NCBI GenBank assembly: GCA_030682385.1
Contig: JAUXOG010000003.1
Span: forward strand, 1 to 34,355
Source of the DNA: Bacteroidota bacterium
Lineage (GTDB): Bacteria > Bacteroidota > Ignavibacteria > UBA10030 > BY39
Length of the DNA: 34,355 bases
Reading direction: 5' to 3'
Part shown: positions 9,590 through 34,355 of the stretch, one piece after another
Layout: the number at the start of each line of letters is the position of its first letter
Position numbering within the stretch: the stretch's first letter is position 1
Translations under genes and position numbers: made by a program
The notes under the pieces: generated by a model
The model's database searches: none
What the model was told of the DNA's origin: nothing
What the model saw: only the letters and a program-made list of their open reading frames with translations

Positions 9590-12154
9590 ATGGCAAAACA
9601 AAAAAAGAAATCAGCGAACAAGAATTCTCACTTGCCTGCCGTAGCTTCAGCGAAGGCAGGAAGACCAATTGAACAATACGAGCACAAGGACAAGAAACGG
9701 CTCAACAATCCGCCTGTGGGTTTGGTGGATGCACACACCGACAATGGTGGACAGAAGAAAAAGAAATACGCTTACGACCCACACCTTGACCCCCAACTGC
9801 AATGGGCAGGTAAAGCAGAGCATACAAGTTTTGAAGTGCCGACTGTTAGTTTGCATGTGCATGAACGGATTGACCCGAGACGAATAATTGAGCAGTTAAA
9901 AAAAGAACCCGAACCCGATTCACAACTTTCACTTTTTCAAACCAATACGGAAACAAAAGGACTTAGCAAGGCAATTGAGTTTTACAAACACAAAGAAAAT
10001 TGGAGCAACCGCCTTATTGCCGGAGACAGCTTGTTGGTGATGAACTCTCTTTTGGAAAAAGAAGGCATGGGAGGCAAAGTGCAGATGATATTTTTTGATC
10101 CGCCTTATGGAATTAAATACGGGAGCAACTTTCAGCCTTTTGTAAACAAGCGTGATGTAAAAGAGAAAGACGAAGATTTAACTTCTGAACCTGAAATGAT
10201 AAAAGCATTTTGTGATACTTGGGAGTTAGGAATACATTCTTACCTCACATACTTGCGTGACCGTTTGTTTTTGGTAAAAGATTTATTGCACGAAGAAGGA
10301 AGTATCTTCCTTCAAATAAATGACAACAATTTACACCTTGTCAAAGCAGTGATGGATGAAGTGTTCGGTTACAACAATTGCGTTAACATTATTCCTTTTA
10401 AAAAACGAGCTTCATTTCTTTCAAGGTTTGGCAAAGGTTTGTTTGAGCTTTTTGATTACATCATTTGGTATGCAAAGGACATTGAAAACGTCAGTGTTAA
10501 TCCTCTCTATGTTCCCAGCAATAGAGAGGAACAATTGCGTGGAGAATTTAGATTTTACGAAGATGAAAGTGGAATTAGAAACCTTACAGAAGAAGATATT
10601 CAGAATCCTAATCTTGATTTGTCAAAAGTTTTCAGAACACATTCAGGTTCAAAAAAAAGTAGTTCGCCAAAATATACTGAGCCAATAACAATTGACGGCA
10701 AAGAACTATATCCACCAACAGGACACGAATGGAAAGCAGACCCTCAAGGAATGAAAAGGTTGAAAGAATTAAATCGCTTAGTTGGTAACGGTCCAACAAG
10801 ACCTTACAAAATATTTTTCACTGACTTTCCTTATCAAATCTTGAATAACCTTTGGGATGATACACTGGCTGAACAATTTCCAATCTATGCAGTGCAAACT
10901 GATGAACTACCTATTCAAAGATGTATGCTGCTTACAACCATGCCTGGCGATTTGGTTCTTGATATTACTTGCGGAAGCGGAACGACCGCTTATGTTGCAG
11001 AACAATGGGGCAGACGATGGATGACTTGCGACACTTCAAGAGTTGCAATAACACTTGCGAAACAAAGATTGTTGTCAGCAAATTTTGATTATTACGAATT
11101 AGCACACCCAAGCGAAGGAGTAGGAAGCGGATTCAAATACAAGTCAGCAAAAAGATTGAAGTTGGAAATTCTTGCAAACAAACTTGAAGCAGACGAAATT
11201 TATTTTTATGATAAACCAATTCCTAATTCTAAAAAACAAAGAGTAACAGGTCCTTTTACAGTTGAAGCAGTTCCTGCGCCAGTTGTGAAAGCGATGGAAG
11301 ATGCTTCGACTTCGCTCAGCATGACAGATGGAGAAGCAGACAATTCAGTTTCCAGAAGCGGAGAAACATTAAGACAAAACAATTGGATTGATGAATTAAA
11401 AAATACCGGTGTGCGAGGGAAAAGCGGAAATAGAATTGAGTTCACAAGAATGGAAACGGCAAGAGGTTTACGCAATGTGCAAGCAGAAGGAGAAACCAAA
11501 GAAGCGAAACCGAAAAAAATATATGTAGTGTTTGGCCCCGAACATGCACCGCTTGAACAACGAACAGTTGAACTGGCATGGGAAGAAGTGAAGCCATACA
11601 AGCCCGATATTCTTTTGTTCTGTGCTCTGCAGTTTGACGAAGAAGCAGCAAAAGACATTGATGAAATGAATCCTGAAATTACAAAGTGTTTATTTCTTAA
11701 AGCCCAAATGAATGCTGACTTGCTCACTGAAGATTTGAAAAAGAAACGAAGCAGCAACGAAAGTTTTTGGTTAATCGGACAGCCCGATGTGAGGATGAAT
11801 GAAATAAAAAGCGGAGAACACAAAGAGAAATATCAGGTGGAAGTTCACGGCTTTGATTATTACAATCCGAAAACCGGAACAGTTGACAGCGGAGGAAAAG
11901 GAGATATTGCCATGTGGATGCTTGACACCGATTATGATGGAAGAAGTTTATTTCCATCGCAAGTATTTTTTCCGATGGCAGGAGTAAAAGAAGGTTGGGC
12001 AACACTTGCAAAAAATCTGAAAGCAGAAATTGACGAAGAAAAAATTCAGGCATTTAACGGAACTGTTTCTTTGCCTTTCACACCGGGCAAAGCTGTTACG
12101 GTAAAAATCATTGATGCAAGAGGAATTGAGAGTTTGAAAATTATAAGAATTTAA
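9590..12154 (+). CDS. mod: Type III-like DNA adenine-N6 methyltransferase (Mod)
   Basis: This 854-residue protein is the modification and specificity subunit. The catalytic motif IV DPPYG is at residues 170-174 (FFDPPYGIKYGSNF) and the S-adenosylmethionine site follows much later as DITCGSGTTAYVAEQWG (from residue 458). Motif IV before motif I, with a target-recognition segment between (about 240-440), defines the beta class used by type III systems. After the methylase fold there are about 330 further residues, longer than most Mod proteins, with a conserved-looking C-terminal part (HGFDYYNPKTGTVDSGGKGD, DTDYDGRSLFP) that may contact Res. Two palindromic elements are translated in frame, near residues 15-25 (LPAVASAKAGR) and 571-581 (DASTSLSMTDG). 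The OLD-like gene follows after 12 bases. Confidence 0.92.
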   Translation: MAKQKKKSANKNSHLPAVASAKAGRPIEQYEHKDKKRLNNPPVGLVDAHTDNGGQKKKKYAYDPHLDPQLQWAGKAEHTSFEVPTVSLHVHERIDPRRIIEQLKKEPEPDSQLSLFQTNTETKGLSKAIEFYKHKENWSNRLIAGDSLLVMNSLLEKEGMGGKVQMIFFDPPYGIKYGSNFQPFVNKRDVKEKDEDLTSEPEMIKAFCDTWELGIHSYLTYLRDRLFLVKDLLHEEGSIFLQINDNNLHLVKAVMDEVFGYNNCVNIIPFKKRASFLSRFGKGLFELFDYIIWYAKDIENVSVNPLYVPSNREEQLRGEFRFYEDESGIRNLTEEDIQNPNLDLSKVFRTHSGSKKSSSPKYTEPITIDGKELYPPTGHEWKADPQGMKRLKELNRLVGNGPTRPYKIFFTDFPYQILNNLWDDTLAEQFPIYAVQTDELPIQRCMLLTTMPGDLVLDITCGSGTTAYVAEQWGRRWMTCDTSRVAITLAKQRLLSANFDYYELAHPSEGVGSGFKYKSAKRLKLEILANKLEADEIYFYDKPIPNSKKQRVTGPFTVEAVPAPVVKAMEDASTSLSMTDGEADNSVSRSGETLRQNNWIDELKNTGVRGKSGNRIEFTRMETARGLRNVQAEGETKEAKPKKIYVVFGPEHAPLEQRTVELAWEEVKPYKPDILLFCALQFDEEAAKDIDEMNPEITKCLFLKAQMNADLLTEDLKKKRSSNESFWLIGQPDVRMNEIKSGEHKEKYQVEVHGFDYYNPKTGTVDSGGKGDIAMWMLDTDYDGRSLFPSQVFFPMAGVKEGWATLAKNLKAEIDEEKIQAFNGTVSLPFTPGKAVTVKIIDARGIESLKIIRI
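9635..9660. repeat. GC-rich palindromic element, copy B, in frame inside mod
   Basis: CCTGCC (9635-9640) and GGCAGG (9655-9660) flank GTAGCTTCAGCGAA, where TTC and GAA extend the pairing. It is translated as PAVASAKAG, after a Lys-rich low-complexity N-terminus and before the first globular part of Mod. It has the same arms as copies A and C. Confidence 0.7.
11301..11326. repeat. Dispersed-repeat-like insertion in mod (different family)
   Basis: ATGCTTCGACTTCGCTCAGC followed by ATGACA, with ATGCT/AGCAT as short inverted ends. From memory this resembles a very widespread short intergenic repeat whose reverse strand translates as MLSEVEAS; that reverse reading is present here. It is in frame in mod, giving DASTSLSMTD in a linker between the methylase fold and the C-terminal region. 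Identification as a repeat is by recall, since there is only one copy in the window. Confidence 0.5.
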
Positions 12155-12166
12155 AACGGGACAATT

Positions 12167-13909
12167 ATGATTACAGAATTAGTTATAAAAAACTTTAAGA
12201 GTATATCTGAGCAGTCATACAAATTTTCAGATTTCGATTTGCTTGTTGGAAGAAATAACAGCGGCAAAAGCTCTATTCTTCAAGCAATGGCTATATGGCA
12301 ATATTGTGTTGATGAATTTCATCGAATGAAGAGAAAAGGCAAGACCGGTGCTCAAATCGTTTTACCAAACTTTACAGCATTACCTCTTCCGGAATTTAAT
12401 TTGTTATGGACAAATAAAGTTGATAGAAAATATCCAAAAGAAAATGGGAAAAAAAAACAAGAATACATTCTCATAGAAATAACGATAAGTTACATAAAGA
12501 GTGATGGGTCTTATGGTGAATTTGGAATTTCTCTTAGGTATCAAACGCCTCAATCAATATATGCCATTCCAATAAAAGGATGGAAGGAGTTTAACAGTCT
12601 TGATAAAGCAGGAGAATTACCACGCATAGTTTATGTGCCGCCTTTTTCCGGATTAGACCCGTTTGAAAAATGGGCGGATGATGGAGTAGTCAAGCAAAAC
12701 GTTGGCAAAGGTCAGCCGGGTTCTGTATTACGCAACCTTTTATTTAGAGTAATTGACCGATATGAGTCGGATAAAGAAGGAAAACCACTCAGAATAGAAT
12801 CGGAAAAAATTAAAAATTGGAAAACCATTCAAACAAAAATTCACGAATGGTTTGGTGTTAATCTTCTCCATCCTGAATATGAAAAAGGAGTAAGTATAAA
12901 TATTGAATCAAAATATGAAAATGAAAATGGTAAGGAGTTTGATATAATTTCTGGTGGAAGTGGATTTCATCAGGCATTAACTCTGCTTGCTTTTTACTAC
13001 GGATACGAAGGTGTCACTACAATTTTATTTGATGAACCTGATGCGCACATGCACGTAAATCTTCAACGCGAAATATTAAATTATTTTAGAGAATTGAAAG
13101 CAACGCAATTTATTATTGCTACCCATGCTGAAGAATTTATTAAAGGGGTTGAGCCGGAAAACATTTATTCGGTCTTAACACCAAAGCCAGAGAGAGTTCA
13201 AAGTAATCCCGAAATCATTACTGCTTTATCTGATGTCGATAATATGGCAATTGTCAGAACAAAGCAAGACCCACATATCCTTTATGTTGAAGGGGAAGAC
13301 GATGAACGACTATTAAATGCGTGGGCTTCTGTTCTAAAAAAAGAAAATGTTTTAAAGCGATTTTATATTGAAACAATGGGAGGAACAACAAAGAAAGAAA
13401 TGAAAGATAAATCTGACAAACATTATGCAGGCTTAAAAAAAATTGTTCCGAATGTAAAACGGCTGATGTTGTTTGATTTTGATACGGAAGAAACTTCCTT
13501 TCATCCTCAGGCAAATAATCCGGGACTTTTTGAATGGAACAGAAAAAATATTGAAAACTATTTGTTGGTTCCTAACGCTTGGAAAAGAGCAATTCTTGAT
13601 AGAAGAAATGAAACAGAAAATAATTTGTTTAATCAACCTATGTGCGATATGGTTGATGAATTTTTTGTCGGTGAAAATCTCACTTTACCGCCGGGCGCAA
13701 CATGGAAAGATGTTGATGCAAATATCTTCAAAGTCATTGATGGTAAGCGAATTTTATTTGAACAAGATAACTCTCTGTTTCAAAGATTACATATTAAATA
13801 TGAATTGCAAATAAATCGTGAGGTGGTAAGCCGGAATTTGATTTTGGAAGAACTCCATATGGATGTTACAAATTTTTTTGAAAAACTAGAAGCGACTCTG
13901 AGTGCATGA
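12167..13909 (+). CDS. OLD-like ABC-ATPase with C-terminal TOPRIM domain, between mod and res
   Basis: This 580-residue protein has an N-terminal SMC/ABC-type ATPase with Walker A GRNNSGKSS (about residues 28-36), an ABC-signature-like SGGSGFHQAL (about 262-271), Walker B TILFDEPDAHMH (about 285-296) and the H-switch ATHAEEF (about 318). It is followed by a TOPRIM-like metal site: ILYVEGEDDE (Glu near 375) and LMLFDFDTEE (the DxD near 436-438). ABC-ATPase followed by TOPRIM is the class of overcoming-lysogenisation-defect (OLD) nucleases, which includes GajA of Gabija; the length is also similar. The start has only a weak GGGAC ribosome site. It lies 12 bases after mod and 127 before res, all on one strand, so it looks like an integral component of this restriction locus. 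A nuclease, or a nucleotide- or DNA-end-sensing ATPase, are the alternatives. Confidence 0.85.
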   Translation: MITELVIKNFKSISEQSYKFSDFDLLVGRNNSGKSSILQAMAIWQYCVDEFHRMKRKGKTGAQIVLPNFTALPLPEFNLLWTNKVDRKYPKENGKKKQEYILIEITISYIKSDGSYGEFGISLRYQTPQSIYAIPIKGWKEFNSLDKAGELPRIVYVPPFSGLDPFEKWADDGVVKQNVGKGQPGSVLRNLLFRVIDRYESDKEGKPLRIESEKIKNWKTIQTKIHEWFGVNLLHPEYEKGVSINIESKYENENGKEFDIISGGSGFHQALTLLAFYYGYEGVTTILFDEPDAHMHVNLQREILNYFRELKATQFIIATHAEEFIKGVEPENIYSVLTPKPERVQSNPEIITALSDVDNMAIVRTKQDPHILYVEGEDDERLLNAWASVLKKENVLKRFYIETMGGTTKKEMKDKSDKHYAGLKKIVPNVKRLMLFDFDTEETSFHPQANNPGLFEWNRKNIENYLLVPNAWKRAILDRRNETENNLFNQPMCDMVDEFFVGENLTLPPGATWKDVDANIFKVIDGKRILFEQDNSLFQRLHIKYELQINREVVSRNLILEELHMDVTNFFEKLEATLSA

Positions 13910-13991
13910 AAGAGGTAGATTAACTTTATAAAAAATAATTGCGCATTAATTGCGTAAAAGGCGCACTCATTTCGTACTAAAGGAACACAAC

Positions 13992-14029
13992 GGGCATTAA
14001 AGGGGCATTAATGGGGCACAGAATGGGCA
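13992..14029 (+). repeat. Four GGGCA repeats at exact 11-bp spacing before res
   Basis: GGGCA starts at 13992, 14003, 14014 and 14025; the first two are followed by TTAA and all lie within the 127-base mod-side leader of res. More degenerate GCGCA/GCGTA copies appear from 13941. About one helical turn between copies puts them on one DNA face, as in an operator, but they also abut the res ribosome-binding region. Confidence 0.6.
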
Positions 14030-14036
14030 AATTTTT

Positions 14037-17015
14037 ATGAAAAAAATTGACAGATTAATAATCAATTCTCCTTACGAAGAACCCAAACAATATTGGGAAT
14101 ACATTCGTGATACACGGGAATTTGTTTTACAAAGCGGAAGGCGAAAAGCAAGTTATATTGTTGCTACTCCCAACTCACAATCGTTTGACGACCCCGGAAT
14201 TCAGATTGAAATAAAATTAGTGAACGCCATCCGACCACGAATAAACAAGTGGCGTGAGCAAGATTATCCGGGAGTAACAGGAATTACCAAAAGATTATTG
14301 CAGCATTGGCAAGATCCCGAAGAAAGAAAAGACCGAAGATTTTTTTTCTGTCAGTTGGAAGCCATTGAAACTTTGATTTGGTTAACCGAAGCACCTGAAT
14401 CCGACAGAACAGGAATTGAAATACCAAGTGACGGAGGAGATTTTTCAAGATGGTGCAGCAAGATGGCAACCGGCTCAGGAAAAACAATTGTAATGGGCCA
14501 ACTTATTGCATGGCAGGTGCTGAATAAAATTGCAAACGGAAAGGACACACGATTTTCAAAAAATGTTTTGGTGGTTGCACCGGGCTTAACAGTTCGCAAT
14601 CGTTTAAGTGTGCTGAATCCATCTGACAAACAAAATTATTACGAGGAGTTCAACATCGTTCCACAGGGATTGATGGAAACTTTGCGACAGGGGAAAATAA
14701 AAATCATCAACTGGCATACACTTGCATGGGACACACAAAAGAAATTGAATGAAAAGATTGCGAAAGGAAATCTCCGAACAGTTGACAGAAGAAAGAAAAC
14801 GGAAATCAGTGATGAAGCTTATGTAAAAGATGTTTTAGGCGACATGGCTTCAGTAACCAACATGATTGTGATAAACGATGAATCACATCATGCTTGGCGT
14901 GTTAATCCGGATTTTAAAGGTAAGAAAGATGATAAGGAATTAGTTGCAGAAGCAACAATTTGGGTTGGCGGTTTAGATAAAATTCACCGTTCACGGGGCA
15001 TTCTACAATGCTTTGACTTATCGGCAACACCTTTTGCACCGGGTGGAAAACAAGCAAGTGAAGAAGCATTGTTTCCGTGGATTGTTGGCGACTTTGGTTT
15101 GAACGATGCAATTGAAAGTGGGTTGGTAAAAACTCCGAGAGTTGTAATTCGTGATGATGGTAGCCCTTCAGCAAGAGATTTTCGTTCTAAGTTGTATCAT
15201 ATATATACCGCAGATGTTGAAGGTGCAAAAATATCAGATGACCTAAATCAGAAAGTTGATGAAACAATTCCGCTTCCCGATTTAGTGAAGAACGCATATA
15301 TTCTTTTAGGAAAAGATTGGAAAATAGTTTATGATAGTTGGAAAAACAAAATTCCTTTTGTTCCACCCGTGATGATAACAGTAGCGAACACTACTTACAC
15401 ATCGGCACGGGTAAAATATTCTTTTGACCACGATAGTTTTTGGCTTTCGGCAGTTGGCTTAGGTGAATTGTGTAATTCTGAAAAGACATTGCAGATCGAC
15501 AGCGGCATTTTGAATAAAGTTGAGAAAGGCGAGTTCGGTGAATTTAATGGTGATGAAACCGAACAAGATGTTGAGGAAGCCGAAGATGTTGTTGAAGAAG
15601 AAAATGATGAACCAAAAGAAAACCCGCCTGCCGGACGGGCAGGGAAAAAACCCAAAAAAGAATTAGCACTTGAGTTAAGAGAAAAAGTTAATACTGTTGG
15701 AAGATTTGGACAAGCAGGAGAGCAAATTCAAAATGTAATTTCAGTCGGTATGTTGAGTGAGGGTTGGGATGCAAAAACTGTTACACATATTATGGGCTTG
15801 CGTGCATTCAGCAGTCAATTGTTGTGTGAGCAAGTTGTAGGCAGAGGATTAAGACGAACTGAGTATGAAACTAAAAAATTTATAGACCCAAAAACAGGGA
15901 AGGAAATAGATTTATTTGACCCGGAGTATGTAAATATTTTCGGAGTGCCTTTTACTTTTCTTCCACATGAGGAAACAGGTGAAGGACCTGAACCACCGCC
16001 ACCGAAAGCAAAAACAGAAATTAAACCAGACAAAGAAAAAGCGGAACACAAAATTTCTTTCCCGAATGTTTTGCGGATTGACCACATCTACAAACCGCAA
16101 CTCACAATCAATTTAGCGACAGTAATACCGCTTGAACTTGACCCCTACTCTTCCATTACCGAAGCAGAGTTGGGAGCAATCATTGCCGGTAAGCCAACCA
16201 ATCTTTCTATTTCAGAAATTGATTTAGTTGAAATTGGAATCAACACACGGATGCAAACAATTATTTTCAAAACTGCATCTGCTATTTACAATTCAGAAAA
16301 GAAACCCGACTGGAAAGGAAGCAAAGAAACGTTTCTGATTCAGCTAATCGGAATTGTTGAGAAAATAATTAACTCTGATAAAATCAGATTCAAAAATCCT
16401 TTGTTTAATCAGGATGAAGTGAGAAAAAGAATTTTGCTCATGTTGAACATGAACAAAGTCATTCAGCATATCTGGAATGAAATCCGTGCAGTCAATACAA
16501 CACAACTCACACCGATATTTGATAAAGAACATCCGATTCGTTCAACAACAGACATCAGAACATGGTGGACAAGCAAACCGTGTGAGAACTTTTCTAAATC
16601 ACACATCAACTTTGTTGTTTGCGACAGCACTTGGGAATTTCTTGAAGCAAGAAAAATTAACGACAGCAAAGTAGTTGAATCATTCGTGAAGAATGACCAT
16701 TTAGGTTTTGCAATTATTTACAACTATCAGGGAATCGTGAACAGATATTTTCCCGACTTCATTATTAAACTGAAAACAGGCGAGTATCTTATTCTTGAAA
16801 CCAAAGGTCAGGATAAGGACAAGGACAAAACGAAAAGAGCATTTTTAGATGAATGGTGCAGAGCGGTGAATCAGCACGGAGGTTTTGGAAAATGGAGTTG
16901 GGCAGTTTCATTTGATGCAAATGATTTAGACAGCATTCTACAAAAAAGCAGCGAACTAGTAACATCAAACTGTATTAGCCAACATACAAAGCCACACACA
17001 GAGGGGAACGTTTAG
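14037..17015 (+). CDS. res: Type III-like restriction subunit: SF2 helicase with C-terminal PD-(D/E)xK nuclease (Res)
   Basis: This 992-residue protein has the DEAD/H-type translocase motifs: ATGSGKT (144-150), DESHH (281-285), SATPF (329-333), GMLSEGWDAKTVTHIMGLRA and QVVGRGLRR (599-607). Near the C-terminus FPDF (PD at 906-907) and ETK (921-923) form a PD-(D/E)xK endonuclease site. The N-terminus (LIINSPYEEP, then QFC-type helicase entry FFFCQLEAIETLIWL) recalls, from memory, the family annotated as BPTD_3080 family restriction endonuclease rather than classical EcoP15I Res; this was not checked by search. An acidic linker (about 505-528) is followed by an in-frame palindromic element (residues 529-538, NPPAGRAGKK). 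The ATG has no strong ribosome site; an in-frame stop at 13998 excludes a longer start. Confidence 0.92.
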   Translation: MKKIDRLIINSPYEEPKQYWEYIRDTREFVLQSGRRKASYIVATPNSQSFDDPGIQIEIKLVNAIRPRINKWREQDYPGVTGITKRLLQHWQDPEERKDRRFFFCQLEAIETLIWLTEAPESDRTGIEIPSDGGDFSRWCSKMATGSGKTIVMGQLIAWQVLNKIANGKDTRFSKNVLVVAPGLTVRNRLSVLNPSDKQNYYEEFNIVPQGLMETLRQGKIKIINWHTLAWDTQKKLNEKIAKGNLRTVDRRKKTEISDEAYVKDVLGDMASVTNMIVINDESHHAWRVNPDFKGKKDDKELVAEATIWVGGLDKIHRSRGILQCFDLSATPFAPGGKQASEEALFPWIVGDFGLNDAIESGLVKTPRVVIRDDGSPSARDFRSKLYHIYTADVEGAKISDDLNQKVDETIPLPDLVKNAYILLGKDWKIVYDSWKNKIPFVPPVMITVANTTYTSARVKYSFDHDSFWLSAVGLGELCNSEKTLQIDSGILNKVEKGEFGEFNGDETEQDVEEAEDVVEEENDEPKENPPAGRAGKKPKKELALELREKVNTVGRFGQAGEQIQNVISVGMLSEGWDAKTVTHIMGLRAFSSQLLCEQVVGRGLRRTEYETKKFIDPKTGKEIDLFDPEYVNIFGVPFTFLPHEETGEGPEPPPPKAKTEIKPDKEKAEHKISFPNVLRIDHIYKPQLTINLATVIPLELDPYSSITEAELGAIIAGKPTNLSISEIDLVEIGINTRMQTIIFKTASAIYNSEKKPDWKGSKETFLIQLIGIVEKIINSDKIRFKNPLFNQDEVRKRILLMLNMNKVIQHIWNEIRAVNTTQLTPIFDKEHPIRSTTDIRTWWTSKPCENFSKSHINFVVCDSTWEFLEARKINDSKVVESFVKNDHLGFAIIYNYQGIVNRYFPDFIIKLKTGEYLILETKGQDKDKDKTKRAFLDEWCRAVNQHGGFGKWSWAVSFDANDLDSILQKSSELVTSNCISQHTKPHTEGNV
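15623..15644. repeat. GC-rich palindromic element, copy C, in frame inside res
   Basis: CCTGCC (15627-15632) and GGCAGG (15638-15643) enclose GGACG; CCCG and CGGG add outer pairing. It is translated as PPAGRAG at the end of an acidic, probably disordered linker, which explains why an insertion is tolerated. Confidence 0.72.
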
Positions 17016-30259: not shown

Positions 30260-31495
30260 ATGAATAAAATATATGGCAAATTACACATATTTTTGATGTT
30301 ACTGCTGATTATTAGTTGTTCGCGTGCCCCTACACAAATCACCGAAAATGAGCCACCACGCCAACTTAACGAGAAAGAAACTGCACTTGTTAATTCTGTG
30401 AACGGATTTAGTTTTAAAATCCTCAACCGAATAAACAAATCTGAACTCAATCAAAATGTATTTATATCGCCGTTGAGCATTTCGTATGCACTTGGTATGA
30501 CATTAAACGGTGCCGGAGGAAATACGTATGATTCAATAAAAAACACACTCGATTTATCAACTCTATCTCCTGATGAAATAAATCAGAATTACAAAAGCTT
30601 GATGGAGTTACTCGTGAATCTCGATCCAAAAGTAATTTTCAAAATTGCTAACTCAATATGGCATCGTAACGACCTTCCTGTCGAAAAAGATTTCATAGAT
30701 GTTAATAAAAAATATTTTGATGCTCAAGTTTCTGGTTTGGATTTTGGTGCACCTAATGCTGCACAAATAATCAACGCTTGGGTCGATCAAAATACGAATG
30801 GTAAAATTAAAACAATTGTTCCTGATCCCATCCCAAATTTAGTAGTGATGTATCTTATCAATGCAATTTATTTTAAAGGCAATTGGACTTACCAATTCGA
30901 TCCGAATCAAACTAAAGATGATAAATTCACACTACCTGGTGGTTCGCAGAAGATTTGCAAGATGATGAGCATAACGGGCGATTTCAAATATTTTGAAGAT
31001 GAACAATTACAGATGATTGATTTGCCTTACGGTGATAAAAAATTCAGTATGACTATAGTCTTACCAAAAGGAAATAAAAATATCGATCAGTTTGTCAGTG
31101 AGATAACAGAGATTAAATGGAATAGTTGGATACAAAATCTTAGAATAAAAGAAGGCGACCTTTTCCTGCCAAAATATAAAATTGAATTTAAAAAATCTTT
31201 GAACGATGTTCTGAAAGCAATGGGAATGGATATAGCGTTTGATCATCGCCGCGCCAACTTTACTAATATCAGTAAAATAGGAGATTTGCATATCACAAAT
31301 GTTTTGCACAAAACTTATGTAGATGTGAACGAAGAAGGCACCGAGGCAGCCGCAGTAACTTCTGTTGAAATCGGAGTTACGAGTATTCAAGAAACTTTTG
31401 TTATGCGTGTTGACCGTCCGTTTTTCTTTGTAATTCGGGACAATCATTCTCATAGTTTGATATTTATGGGGAAAATAGTTGAGCCAACGTTGTAA
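30260..31495 (+). CDS. Serpin-family protease inhibitor, predicted lipoprotein
   Basis: This 411-residue protein has a lipoprotein signal (LLLIISC, Cys 20), then a full serpin fold: NVFISPLSISYALGMTLNGA, the breach/shutter segment YLINAIYFKGNW, MTIVLP, and the C-terminal VDRPFFFVIRDNHSHSLIFM plus GKIVEP. The reactive-loop hinge reads EEGTEAAAVTS, matching the Glu-Gly-Thr-Glu-Ala-Ala pattern of inhibitory serpins. Counting 15 residues from the hinge Gly places P1 near Thr/Ser in GVTSIQ, which would favour elastase- or subtilisin-like targets; this count is approximate. AGAAAGGAG precedes the ATG. Anchored on the outside of the cell, it would protect surface proteins from proteases. Confidence 0.93.
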   Translation: MNKIYGKLHIFLMLLLIISCSRAPTQITENEPPRQLNEKETALVNSVNGFSFKILNRINKSELNQNVFISPLSISYALGMTLNGAGGNTYDSIKNTLDLSTLSPDEINQNYKSLMELLVNLDPKVIFKIANSIWHRNDLPVEKDFIDVNKKYFDAQVSGLDFGAPNAAQIINAWVDQNTNGKIKTIVPDPIPNLVVMYLINAIYFKGNWTYQFDPNQTKDDKFTLPGGSQKICKMMSITGDFKYFEDEQLQMIDLPYGDKKFSMTIVLPKGNKNIDQFVSEITEIKWNSWIQNLRIKEGDLFLPKYKIEFKKSLNDVLKAMGMDIAFDHRRANFTNISKIGDLHITNVLHKTYVDVNEEGTEAAAVTSVEIGVTSIQETFVMRVDRPFFFVIRDNHSHSLIFMGKIVEPTL

Positions 31496-31624: not shown

Positions 31625-32167
31625 ATGAAAAGAGTAGTTAGTTTTATTATTGTTCTTTCGTTTTTAGTTAGTAGTTTTGGCTTAGCACAAAACAAGTTTG
31701 TAGGTGCAAAGACCTGCGCCCCCTGCCATAAAACCGGAAAGCAGGGTAAACAGGATAGCATCTGGGTAAAGTCGAAACATGCAGGGGCTTATAAAACACT
31801 AACAACCGAAACTGCACAAAAGATTGCAAAAGAAAAAGGACTCAAAAAAGCCGCTAATGAAAGTCCTGAATGCCTCGAATGCCACGTTACAGCACCAAAA
31901 GGCGATGCAAAATTGTTAGATAAGGGTTACAACAAAGCTGAAGGTATTAGTTGCGAATCGTGCCACGGTGCCGGATCAGCTTATAAAACAATGGCTATTA
32001 TGAAAGATGCTAAAAAAGCTGTTGAAGCTGGCTTAACCGAATTCAAAGACGAAAAAGCAATCGAAGCTTATTGTGTAACTTGCCACAACGAAAAGAGTCC
32101 AACTTACATAGAATTCAAATTCAAAGAAGCATGGGCACAGATTGCTCATCCACTTCCAAAGAAGTAA
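31625..32167 (+). CDS. Periplasmic tetraheme cytochrome c (c554-like)
   Basis: This 180-residue protein has a cleavable signal peptide (MKRVVSFIIVLSFLVSSFG, then LAQ) and four CxxCH sites: CAPCH, CLECH, CESCH and CVTCH. The context VGAKTCAPCHK near the N-terminus, the SKHAGAY segment (possible His ligand) and GISCESCHGAGS are typical of cytochrome c554/c-family electron carriers. The expression signals are strong (consensus promoter before, good terminator after) and the gene is alone in its transcript. It probably carries electrons in the periplasm, perhaps for the HybA/HybB-type complex encoded just downstream. Confidence 0.9.
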   Translation: MKRVVSFIIVLSFLVSSFGLAQNKFVGAKTCAPCHKTGKQGKQDSIWVKSKHAGAYKTLTTETAQKIAKEKGLKKAANESPECLECHVTAPKGDAKLLDKGYNKAEGISCESCHGAGSAYKTMAIMKDAKKAVEAGLTEFKDEKAIEAYCVTCHNEKSPTYIEFKFKEAWAQIAHPLPKK

Positions 32168-32523: not shown

Positions 32524-33222
32524 ATGACTGCAATCTTAGTAATACTAACAATCATTCTCTTCATAGCGATTGATTACCTCGTATATAGAAAGCGAGGCAC
32601 TGCTCTTCTTCAAGTTGCCCGAAAAACTGTAGAAACAGAATCCCCCAACAATTTTATCCCAATACCAATTACAGATGAGGATATGTTAATTCCAAGAGGA
32701 GTATTCTTACATCCAAATCATACTTGGGCACACATCCTACAGTCGGGGAAAGTTAAAGTGGGTGTTGATTCTTTTATTTCAAAAATCGTGGGGACAATTG
32801 ACCGGGTTTCGCTACCTGCAATCGGTTCAGAAGTAAAAAAAGGGGAGCCAATCTTTAGTTTTAACTCAAAAGGAAGAGTTCTAAATTTTGCTTCTCCCAT
32901 TAACGGAAACATTGTATCTATAAACGATGAGTTAGCGAAGAATCCAACTTTATTAACCGATCCTTACAAAAGCGGCTGGTCTGTTGTGATTGAGCCTAAA
33001 AATCTTTCTTTGGATATCCCAAAATTAAAAATTTCGGAAGACGCTAAAAACTTTATAAAAAATGAATTAAAAAGATTTAAGGAATTTTTGATTGGAGTTG
33101 CTAATGGAAATACTTTAGGATTGCAAACTTTGCAAGATGGCGGTTTGCCTGCCGCAAATGTTTTATCATTATTGGACAGTGAAAAGTGGAAGCTATTTCA
33201 AAAAGAATTTTTAAATTCGTAA
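32524..33222 (+). CDS. Membrane-anchored GcvH-like (biotinyl-lipoyl fold) protein lacking the lipoyl lysine
   Basis: This 232-residue protein has an N-terminal membrane helix (AILVILTIILFIAIDYLV) followed by a basic stop signal. Residues about 65-160 follow the glycine-cleavage H protein: LHPNHTWAHI, VGVDSFISKIVGTIDRVSLP, GSEVKKGEPIF, and ASPINGNIVSIND. The segment that in H protein is ESVKA with the lipoylated Lys reads NSKGRV: Gly 117 takes the Lys position and a Lys (116) is one residue early. A helical tail follows. AAGGAG precedes the ATG. It starts the operon with the HybA- and HybB-like genes, so it belongs to a membrane redox complex, not to glycine cleavage. It may be a structural domain, or be lipoylated at the shifted Lys. 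Confidence 0.75.
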   Translation: MTAILVILTIILFIAIDYLVYRKRGTALLQVARKTVETESPNNFIPIPITDEDMLIPRGVFLHPNHTWAHILQSGKVKVGVDSFISKIVGTIDRVSLPAIGSEVKKGEPIFSFNSKGRVLNFASPINGNIVSINDELAKNPTLLTDPYKSGWSVVIEPKNLSLDIPKLKISEDAKNFIKNELKRFKEFLIGVANGNTLGLQTLQDGGLPAANVLSLLDSEKWKLFQKEFLNS

Positions 33223-33245
33223 CGCGAAAAAGGATGATGAAAAAT

Positions 33246-34016
33246 ATGGCACAAAAAGGTATTCTAATCGATATCACTAAATGTATTGGCTGTCAACAAT
33301 GCGTTAGCGCTTGCAAAATTCAAAATAATTTACCCGATACGGAAGAAACAAAATTATCTATTACCGCCTACACAGTGGTAGAAGAAAAAGAAGAGCGATA
33401 TGTTCGCCGGATGTGTATGCACTGTAAATATCCGACGTGCGAATCCGTTTGTCCGGTGGGCGCCTTTGAACATACTAAGGAAGGAGCTGTTCTATATCAC
33501 GCGGAGAAATGTATCGGTTGTCGTTACTGTATGATGGCGTGTCCGTTCCAAGCGCCGAGGTATGAATGGGCGAGTAGAACCCCACAAATTCAGAAATGCA
33601 AACTATGCATCGAACGAATAACCATCGGGAAAGAAACCGCTTGTACGGAAGCTTGTCCAGTGGGTGCAACCATATTCGGAGATTACAACGATATTCTAAG
33701 AATAGCCCGTCAAACAGTTTCAGCGGAACCTGATAAATACGTAAATCATATTTATGGAGAAAACGAAGTAGGCGGTACTTCGATACTTTATATTTCGGAT
33801 GTTCCTTTCGAAAAATTAGGCTTCAAAACAAATCTTGGGACTCAAAAACTACCTGAACTTACCTGGAGTGCATTATCTAAAATTCCTTCAGTAGTAGCAG
33901 TGGGTGGAACGCTTCTCTACGGAATATGGTGGATTACAAACCGGCGTAAAGAAGTAATTGAGTTTGAACGTAAGATGAAAGAGTCGCAAACAAATAATCC
34001 CGATGAAGAAAATTAA
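33246..34016 (+). CDS. HybA-like four-cluster iron-sulfur protein with C-terminal membrane helix
   Basis: The protein is 256 residues from ATG 33246; in-frame ATGs at 33234 and 33237 are alternatives, and the frame from 33186 overlapping the previous gene is rejected. Four cluster motifs follow in order: CIGCQQCVSACK, CMHCKYPTCESVCPVG, CIGCRYCMMACPFQ and CKLCIE...CTEACPVG, as in HybA/NrfC/DMSO-reductase beta subunits. Near the end a single helix (SVVAVGGTLLYGIWWI) and a basic tail anchor it, as in HybA. No twin-arginine signal is seen, so the side of the membrane is undecided (HybA itself is periplasmic with a Tat signal). It should pass electrons between an unseen catalytic subunit and the next membrane protein. 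Confidence 0.88.
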   Translation: MAQKGILIDITKCIGCQQCVSACKIQNNLPDTEETKLSITAYTVVEEKEERYVRRMCMHCKYPTCESVCPVGAFEHTKEGAVLYHAEKCIGCRYCMMACPFQAPRYEWASRTPQIQKCKLCIERITIGKETACTEACPVGATIFGDYNDILRIARQTVSAEPDKYVNHIYGENEVGGTSILYISDVPFEKLGFKTNLGTQKLPELTWSALSKIPSVVAVGGTLLYGIWWITNRRKEVIEFERKMKESQTNNPDEEN

Positions 34017-34028
34017 AAAGGACTTAGT

Positions 34029-34355
34029 ATGAATAAATCTGTAATATCGAATATCACATTTTGGAAAAGCGTTGGCTTTGTTTTAATATCTTTGACTCTT
34101 TATTCAATAATCGTTCGCTTCGCTTTTGGATTGGGTGCCGCAACCAATTTAACCGATGAATTCCCTTGGGGATTATGGATTGGTTTTGATATCCTCTGTG
34201 GAGTCGGGTTAGCGGCAGGAGGATTTACTCTCTGCGGTTTAGTTTATATTTTTAATATCAAAGAATTCAAACCAATTGTTCGACCTGCAATTTTAACCGC
34301 ATTTTTGAGTTATTTGCTTGTAGTTTTTGCTCTAATGGTCGATTTAGGGCGCCCT
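34029..34355 (+). CDS. HybB/NrfD-like membrane subunit (3' end cut by window)
   Basis: The open frame from ATG 34029 gives 109 residues to the right edge. It has at least three hydrophobic helices: WKSVGFVLISLTLYSIIVRF, then a WGLWIGFDILCGVGLAAGGF block and ILTAFLSYLLVVFALMVDLG. The WGLWIGFD...GVGLAAGGF pattern and VDLGRP are typical of the HybB/NrfD quinone-interacting family (full length about 390). It starts 12 bases after the HybA-like gene. It would transfer electrons to or from menaquinone; the downstream genes that would identify the enzyme lie outside the window. Confidence 0.88.
   Translation, partial: MNKSVISNITFWKSVGFVLISLTLYSIIVRFAFGLGAATNLTDEFPWGLWIGFDILCGVGLAAGGFTLCGLVYIFNIKEFKPIVRPAILTAFLSYLLVVFALMVDLGRP

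Follow-up and report, generated by a model that had tools for sequence, protein, structure and literature searches.

A conserved and apparently undescribed gene module that joins lipoate-free H-protein folds to HybA/HybB-like proteins and a putative redox-responsive two-component system

Introduction

The H-protein of the glycine cleavage system (GcvH; PF01597, TIGR00527) shares its fold, over about 125 residues, with the protein that is the subject of this analysis. The latter differs from GcvH in lacking the lipoyl lysine and in having an extra N-terminal helix and C-terminal tail, and it is not encoded beside gcvP or gcvT; a true GcvH is encoded elsewhere in the same genome (contig C19). 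A GcvH-like protein recruited into a redox gene cluster is also found in the sHdr sulfur-oxidation system, where the lipoyl lysine of LbpA is strictly conserved (PMC6067878). In contrast, the family described here has no such lysine, and no recurrent Hdr-like or lipoate-ligase neighbour was recognised at its 67 loci. Membership of the sHdr/LbpA group is ruled out by the missing lysine.

The neighbouring genes resemble parts of other well-described systems. The Hmc, Qrc and Hyb modules (HmcBC, QrcCD and HybAB; PMC8076601) share with this locus a pair made up of an iron-sulfur protein and an NrfD-like membrane subunit, whereas the pair described here scores under the equivalog cut-offs, comes without a hydrogenase or molybdopterin catalytic subunit and is linked to a kinase. 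Histidine kinases, two-component systems and GcvH go unmentioned in that review of NrfD-like proteins (PMC8076601). The kinase itself has a periplasmic Cache-like sensor and a CXXCH motif in common with the c-haem Cache sensors (sCache_heme/DUF3365; GSU0582, GSU0935), but differs from these in its second, CX4CH motif, in the lack of a PF11845 match and in its linkage to HybAB and GcvH. A preprint on Cache sensors with one haem reports that domains fused to signalling modules show NO-sensor properties (PMC12889525). Finally, the kinase and its regulator have the same domain make-up as NtrC-type sigma-54 regulators and AtoS- or ZraS-like kinases, yet here the pair is fixedly linked to two lipoate-free H-proteins, HybAB and an archaemetzincin.

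We found no description of such a module in the literature searched, which is weak evidence of novelty as most subscription journals lay outside reach; the redox-signalling module is conserved and, as it appears, undescribed. The window analysed here, meaning the whole stretch of 34,355 nucleotides (contig C98), holds the beginning of the module at its right-hand end.

Results

The first gene, GcvH1 (32524-33222, forward strand), encodes 232 amino acids comprising an N-terminal membrane helix, a lipoate-free H-protein fold and a C-terminal DGG...EFL tail, and carries the motifs VGVDSF and SPINGNIVSIND. Its match to PF01597 (GCV_H) reaches 65.8 bits against a Pfam cut-off of 22.2, while both NCBIfam equivalog profiles score below their cut-offs (61.5 against 115.85 for TIGR00527; 64.4 against 117 for NF002270). 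An AlphaFold model built from a 42-sequence alignment of the family (pLDDT 89.4) has a long N-terminal helix at residues 2-38, an H-protein barrel and a helical C-terminal tail, for which the same 42 rows give the conserved motif DGG...WxxFxxEFL. The model superposes on the lipoylated E. coli H-protein 3ab9 with a TM-score of 0.92 over the target at 1.5 A, and all 22 matches with E <0.001 in a fold search of the PDB are H-proteins. By profile and by structure the window protein thus has the H-protein fold, and the membrane-anchored H-protein fold proposed in an earlier note on this DNA is borne out. Neither GcvH1 nor the second H-protein of the module (GcvH2) matched an anti-phage system in a PADLOC search, and that reading was discarded.

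What sets the protein apart from GcvH is the tip of the hairpin that bears the lipoyl lysine in true H-proteins. Here the tip reads Lys116-Gly117-Arg118 (codons at 32869-32877, forward strand), with Lys116 at 32869-32871 and Gly117, at 32872-32874, in the lipoyl-lysine column. This column was placed by reference to an E. coli GcvH sequence, and the genome's own GcvH gives the identical column. Column alignment thus agrees with the previous placing of Gly117 at the lipoyl position with Lys116 adjoining it. Among 110 GcvH1-type homologues the lipoyl column holds mostly other residues (G29, S21, N18, D16, E8) and lysine in only 5; among the residues listed, it holds lysine in none of 45 GcvH2 and none of 21 REC-GcvH proteins, the latter having the H-fold fused to a receiver. 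As a control, the canonical GcvH proteins of this and related genomes keep the lipoyl lysine (V-K-A; EAVKA-type site) in 21/21 cases. One of the five GcvH1-type proteins with lysine in the column comes from the Chloroflexi locus L121, where no module genes adjoin it; this H-protein may be unrelated. A tree of 84 domains places the true GcvH proteins in one clade, separate from the module H-proteins (support 0.79).

It had been suggested that lipoate might sit instead at a shifted site, Lys116 or a neighbouring lysine, from which it would swing as a redox arm to connect HybA with a further partner. Next to the canonical site, Lys116 is indeed found in the window protein and in a small number of close relatives, and a basic residue is frequent at position 118 (84 of 110). 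However, in the same 110 homologues the Lys116 column is lysine in only 9 and glycine in 53 (aspartate in 18), so that this residue is not invariant beside HybA/HybB, a finding that the earlier note had itself named as decisive against the idea. At position 118 arginine is commoner than lysine (R46, K38), and since arginine is not open to lipoylation this column is not a lipoylation site either. With lysine also nearly absent from the lipoyl column and the true GcvH site intact throughout, shifted lipoylation is extremely improbable, and at Lys116 it is ruled out by the column counts. Judged by these alignments, the H-folds of the module carry no lipoate.

GcvH1 is followed, across short gaps, by a HybA/HmcB-like iron-sulfur (ferredoxin-type) protein (33234-34016, forward strand; PF13247, 71 bits) and by a HybB/NrfD-like membrane subunit (34029-34355, forward strand; PF03916), of which the N-terminal 109 residues precede the contig end. 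These Pfam and NCBIfam matches uphold the view that the GcvH-like gene opens an iron-sulfur/quinone stretch of the HybA-HybB kind. Homologues of the HybA-like protein have 16-17 cysteines in most cases. The window protein has a C-terminal membrane helix and begins straight at the first cluster; the Tat signal found in about 30 of 72 homologues is lacking throughout its lineage. HybA proteins with and without the signal occur in modules that are otherwise alike (for example, 33234-34016 of the window and L055:11063-11935). With the signal variable, the window HybA may work either on the cytoplasmic side, where direct contact with GcvH1 would be possible, or be exported in another way, and its route to the periplasmic haems would depend on that side.

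Upstream of GcvH1 lies a tetrahaem c-type cytochrome with a Cytochrome_C554 domain and four CXXCH motifs (31625-32167, forward strand; PF13435, 61 bits), and the same gene directly precedes GcvH1 in the related loci L037, L038 and L039. We infer that it belongs to the module, as a probable electron-transfer partner, and the 356-bp gap between the two genes suggests a separate transcript.

These proteins belong to neither a hydrogenase 2 nor an Hmc complex. The HybA-like protein scores 185 bits against a cut-off of 263 for HybA and 261 against 420 for HmcB (NCBIfam), the upstream cytochrome has four haem motifs against the 16 haems of HmcA, and no catalytic gene accompanies the module at any of 20 close loci or of 67 from a wider range. 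The NiFe hydrogenases of the genome are on contigs C66 and C97, with no HybA/HybB of the module type nearby, and a hydrogenase or other catalytic subunit downstream was therefore rejected. The membrane redox enzyme expected by the earlier note, with its catalytic subunit to be looked for downstream, gives way in the relatives to signalling genes.

The rest of the module can be followed on two further contigs. A PF01597 search of the genome gave three clear proteins, of which one is the true GcvH on C19, another is the window protein and the third lies on C10. Contig C10 begins with the remainder of HybB (L035:3-854), followed by the second lipoate-free H-protein, GcvH2 (L035:862-1662, 266 aa), and a HAMP histidine kinase. 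Measured against HybB of L037, residues 1-109 are encoded at the end of C98 and residues 112-382 at the start of C10, with two residues missing. Contig C112 carries the sigma-54 regulator, an archaemetzincin (L125:1575-2093), a six-haem cytochrome, a cytochrome b-sized gene and a multihaem cytochrome. The archaemetzincin (M54; PF07998), which follows the regulator in most loci, scores over the cut-off in this genome (77.9 bits) as in L037 (80.2) and L054 (74.3). No sequence overlap joins C98 to C10, or C10 to L124, which starts inside C112. In L037 and L038 the order is uninterrupted: tetrahaem cytochrome, GcvH1, HybA, HybB, GcvH2, kinase, regulator and archaemetzincin, and then a NapC-type cytochrome, a Rieske protein, a cytochrome b and an 11-haem cytochrome. 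The order C98-C10-C112 in the window's genome, which is read from these relatives and not from the assembly, is strongly supported.

In the relatives a HisKA and HATPase kinase (HAMP-HisKA-HATPase) and a receiver protein lie in one operon, as in a two-component system; the regulator is of the NtrC type, with receiver, AAA+ and Fis-type HTH domains. For the genome of the window itself, C10 has the kinase and C112 the regulator, across the inferred joins. GcvH2 has an N-terminal motif, C-x-W-M-x-A-G-V-V-x-Y-K-L-C-x6-C-x2-C, whose four cysteines are found in 36 of 45 homologues, are lost in the two close relatives L037 and L038, and could possibly form a metal or Fe-S site.

The periplasmic sensor of the kinase carries two haem-c motifs, CX2CH and CX4CH, which occur together in 59 of 63 kinases. 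In a 39-row alignment the cysteines and histidine of both motifs and Met60 are invariant, and the histidine that follows in CHxHP is nearly so. The sensor model (pLDDT 89.7) matches the Cache sensors WalK, GSU0935 and CitA in fold, and a profile of the sensor finds the c-haem sensor GSU0935 as a weak sequence match (E 2e-4). Compared with sCache_heme (DUF3365), the Cache fold and CX2CH are seen, PF11845 gives no match and the CX4CH is extra. With two haem motifs and with HybAB linked to it, the sensor more likely reads a redox signal than NO, NO being possible.

The grouping of these genes is conserved. A forward scan, with one genome per species and an alignment from Ignavibacteria only, so that distant branches are under-sampled, gave 67 loci from about a dozen phyla; these were chosen by GcvH1, and most records are metagenome-assembled genomes (MAGs). 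They come from Ignavibacteria and Bacteroidetes MAGs, KSB1, Cloacimonetes, Krumholzibacteria, Nitrospinae, Spirochaetes and Deltaproteobacteria, together with Planctomycetes, Gemmatimonadetes, Glassbacteria, Zixibacteria, Caldithrix, Acidobacteria and Chloroflexi records. Module HMMs found HybA at 58 loci, HybB at 54, the haem kinase at 48, the NtrC regulator at 45, the archaemetzincin at 42 and GcvH2 at 33, many of the 67 being on short contigs. Among the 35 loci of at least 15 kb, HybAB was present in 30, the kinase in 30, the regulator in 29 and the archaemetzincin in 27, and each of the 35 had at least one of HybA, kinase and regulator. L063 and L120 have GcvH1-HybAB with no kinase within the stretch examined. 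The recognisable recurring neighbours from outside the module are multihaem cytochromes; a catalytic subunit was not a recurrent neighbour across the 67 loci.

The association also holds when read in reverse. The kinase-sensor alignment was run against 148 genomes of the phylum, with GcvH ignored in the selection, and gave 26 strong matches, 23 of which have HybB and/or GcvH2 within 1.5 kb. Six loci from this test that showed only a receiver fragment were extended (L163-L168), and in all six a Tat-type HybA and HybB accompany a multihaem cytochrome, the kinase and a pair of receiver-fused H-proteins (REC-GcvH and TM-REC-GcvH). As for the absence from related HybA/HybB operons that the earlier note had said would count against a role in a complex, the association is kept in many genomes.

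These six loci belong to a sister architecture (the REC form) with the order HybA, HybB, multihaem cytochrome, kinase, REC-GcvH (about 265 aa) and TM-REC-GcvH (about 385 aa). In both receiver proteins the Response_reg and GCV_H domains score well above the Pfam cut-offs, and the acidic/phospho-Asp pattern and the lysine of the receiver are intact in 20 of 21 REC-GcvH proteins. As these operons have no DNA-binding regulator, the output of phosphorylation must act through the GcvH proteins. TM-REC-GcvH and GcvH1 have the same N-terminal helix, and GcvH1 looks like TM-REC-GcvH minus its receiver. At L163 (G184, a one-contig genome) the REC form (HybA, HybB, 13-haem cytochrome, kinase, REC-GcvH, TM-REC-GcvH) and the window-type form are adjacent on opposite strands.

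Another form, at L101, L112 and L119, combines GcvH proteins with a kinase, an NtrC regulator and an archaemetzincin; HybAB is absent, and the kinase is of the PAS or Cache type with no haem motifs. At L119 (9215-10537) a NuoG-type 2Fe-2S/4Fe-4S ferredoxin-like region is fused to a lipoate-free GcvH. This fusion gene adjoins a PAS kinase, an NtrC-type regulator and an archaemetzincin. Across these forms the H-fold is always partnered by signalling proteins, and the iron-sulfur parts are a variable input. The receiver-fused H-folds and the kinase, regulator and archaemetzincin partners therefore place the H-fold in a signalling context.

The presence of a sigma-54 regulator is matched by sites upstream of the module and by RpoN encoded in the window's genome. 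A scan for TGGCAC-N5-TTGC(A/T), with at least 10 of 11 positions matching up to 200 bp upstream, gave sites before 7 of 63 kinase genes and 12 of 101 GcvH1 genes, with 0.2 expected in each case from shuffles, although related sequences are not independent and the counts overstate the number of events. Such sites occur in 1% of random stretches and are rare before internal genes (0-2). Upstream of GcvH1 in the window, no site has both the -24 GG and the -12 GC at a score of at least 9; TGGCATAGAGCTTGGA at about 32452 is sigma-54-like with the GC missing, and is not claimed. It is likely, from these sites, that the module is autoregulated by its sigma-54 regulator.

Elsewhere in the window, a multihaem cytochrome of 527 aa with cytochrome c7/c3 and NapC-type matches lies at 9-1592, and a full-length serpin (PF00079, 391 bits) is encoded in this bacterial genome at 30260-31495. 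The stretch 9590-17015 is a probable type III restriction-modification locus with a methyltransferase, an OLD/AAA-type ATPase gene and a 992-aa protein; the latter is a weak match to a restriction subunit, and the ATPase gene lies between.

Discussion

We propose that the genes form a redox-responsive two-component module in which the H-proteins, free of lipoate, connect HybAB with the kinase and regulator as adaptor or effector domains, a reading to which we give a probability of roughly 55%. In such a module, HybB and HybA would swap electrons with the quinone pool, and the resulting redox state could, directly or via the adjacent multihaem cytochromes, set the redox state of the sensor haems. 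The kinase would then phosphorylate the regulator, which in its phosphorylated state would switch sigma-54 genes, the module itself included. The H-folds may serve on the cytoplasmic side as the domains that couple HybAB to kinase and regulator, with GcvH1 tethered to the membrane, and in the sister architecture the H-fold would serve receiver proteins as their output domain. The analysis establishes the anatomy of the module and its conservation; the flow of electrons, the phosphotransfer and the contacts of the H-domain are predicted.

A different reading is that HybA, HybB, the cytochrome and GcvH-like structural subunits make up an ordinary Hmc/Qrc-like quinone:cytochrome c oxidoreductase, of which the kinase and regulator control nothing but the expression. 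We regard this as unlikely, though it is the strongest competitor, given that HybA and HybB are nearest to HmcB and HmcC, that multihaem cytochromes recur beside the module and that relatives of the window have a NapC-Rieske-cytochrome b-multihaem operon after the regulator; moreover, regulators often adjoin the enzymes under their control. It does not, however, account well for H-folds that are fused to receivers and, at one locus, to a ferredoxin-like domain, for those that stay with kinase, regulator and archaemetzincin at L101, L112 and L119 where HybAB is absent, or for a REC form that has no DNA-binding regulator and whose output passes through GcvH proteins. Since the signalling partners are constant and the iron-sulfur input is variable, an adaptor or effector role is favoured over that of a structural subunit of an enzyme. 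The reuse of the fold as a structural or docking domain, which the earlier note had put forward, stands in so far as the role with the HybAB module is real and docking would fit; the partner is a signalling set and not an enzyme.

It could also be speculated that the H-fold gates HybAB: as REC-GcvH is phosphorylated, or the synthesis of GcvH1 is regulated, docking to HybB at its cytoplasmic face would change and electron flow with it, so that the membrane complex would be a target besides transcription. Such an arrangement would suit an operon that, next to HybAB, has receivers only in its GcvH proteins, one of which is tethered to the membrane, and would suit the N-terminal helix that GcvH1 shares with TM-REC-GcvH in the absence of the receiver. 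As GcvH persists at a few loci that have no HybAB, we consider gating to be improbable, more so than the oxidoreductase. Returning to the two-component reading, it is conceivable that an enzyme-free HybAB is a dedicated redox antenna and that the lipoate-free H-fold, as signalling adaptor and response-regulator output, reads or gates it, which would amount to an undescribed kind of redox signal transduction; this broader proposal is tentative and somewhat short of an even chance.

The module shows how a textbook cofactor-carrier fold may be reused, in signalling, with no cofactor, and it is a warning that the annotation "glycine cleavage system H protein" is wrong for many genes. Bacterial archaemetzincins, for their part, gain a genomic context. 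To our knowledge, the sensing of the redox state of the quinone pool in uncultured anaerobic and sediment bacteria is largely unknown, and the module offers a specific wiring for it, through a quinone-reactive HybAB, a di-haem periplasmic kinase and a sigma-54 regulator. Within this wiring, the job of GcvH1 is most likely to help sense the respiratory state and not to take part in metabolism.
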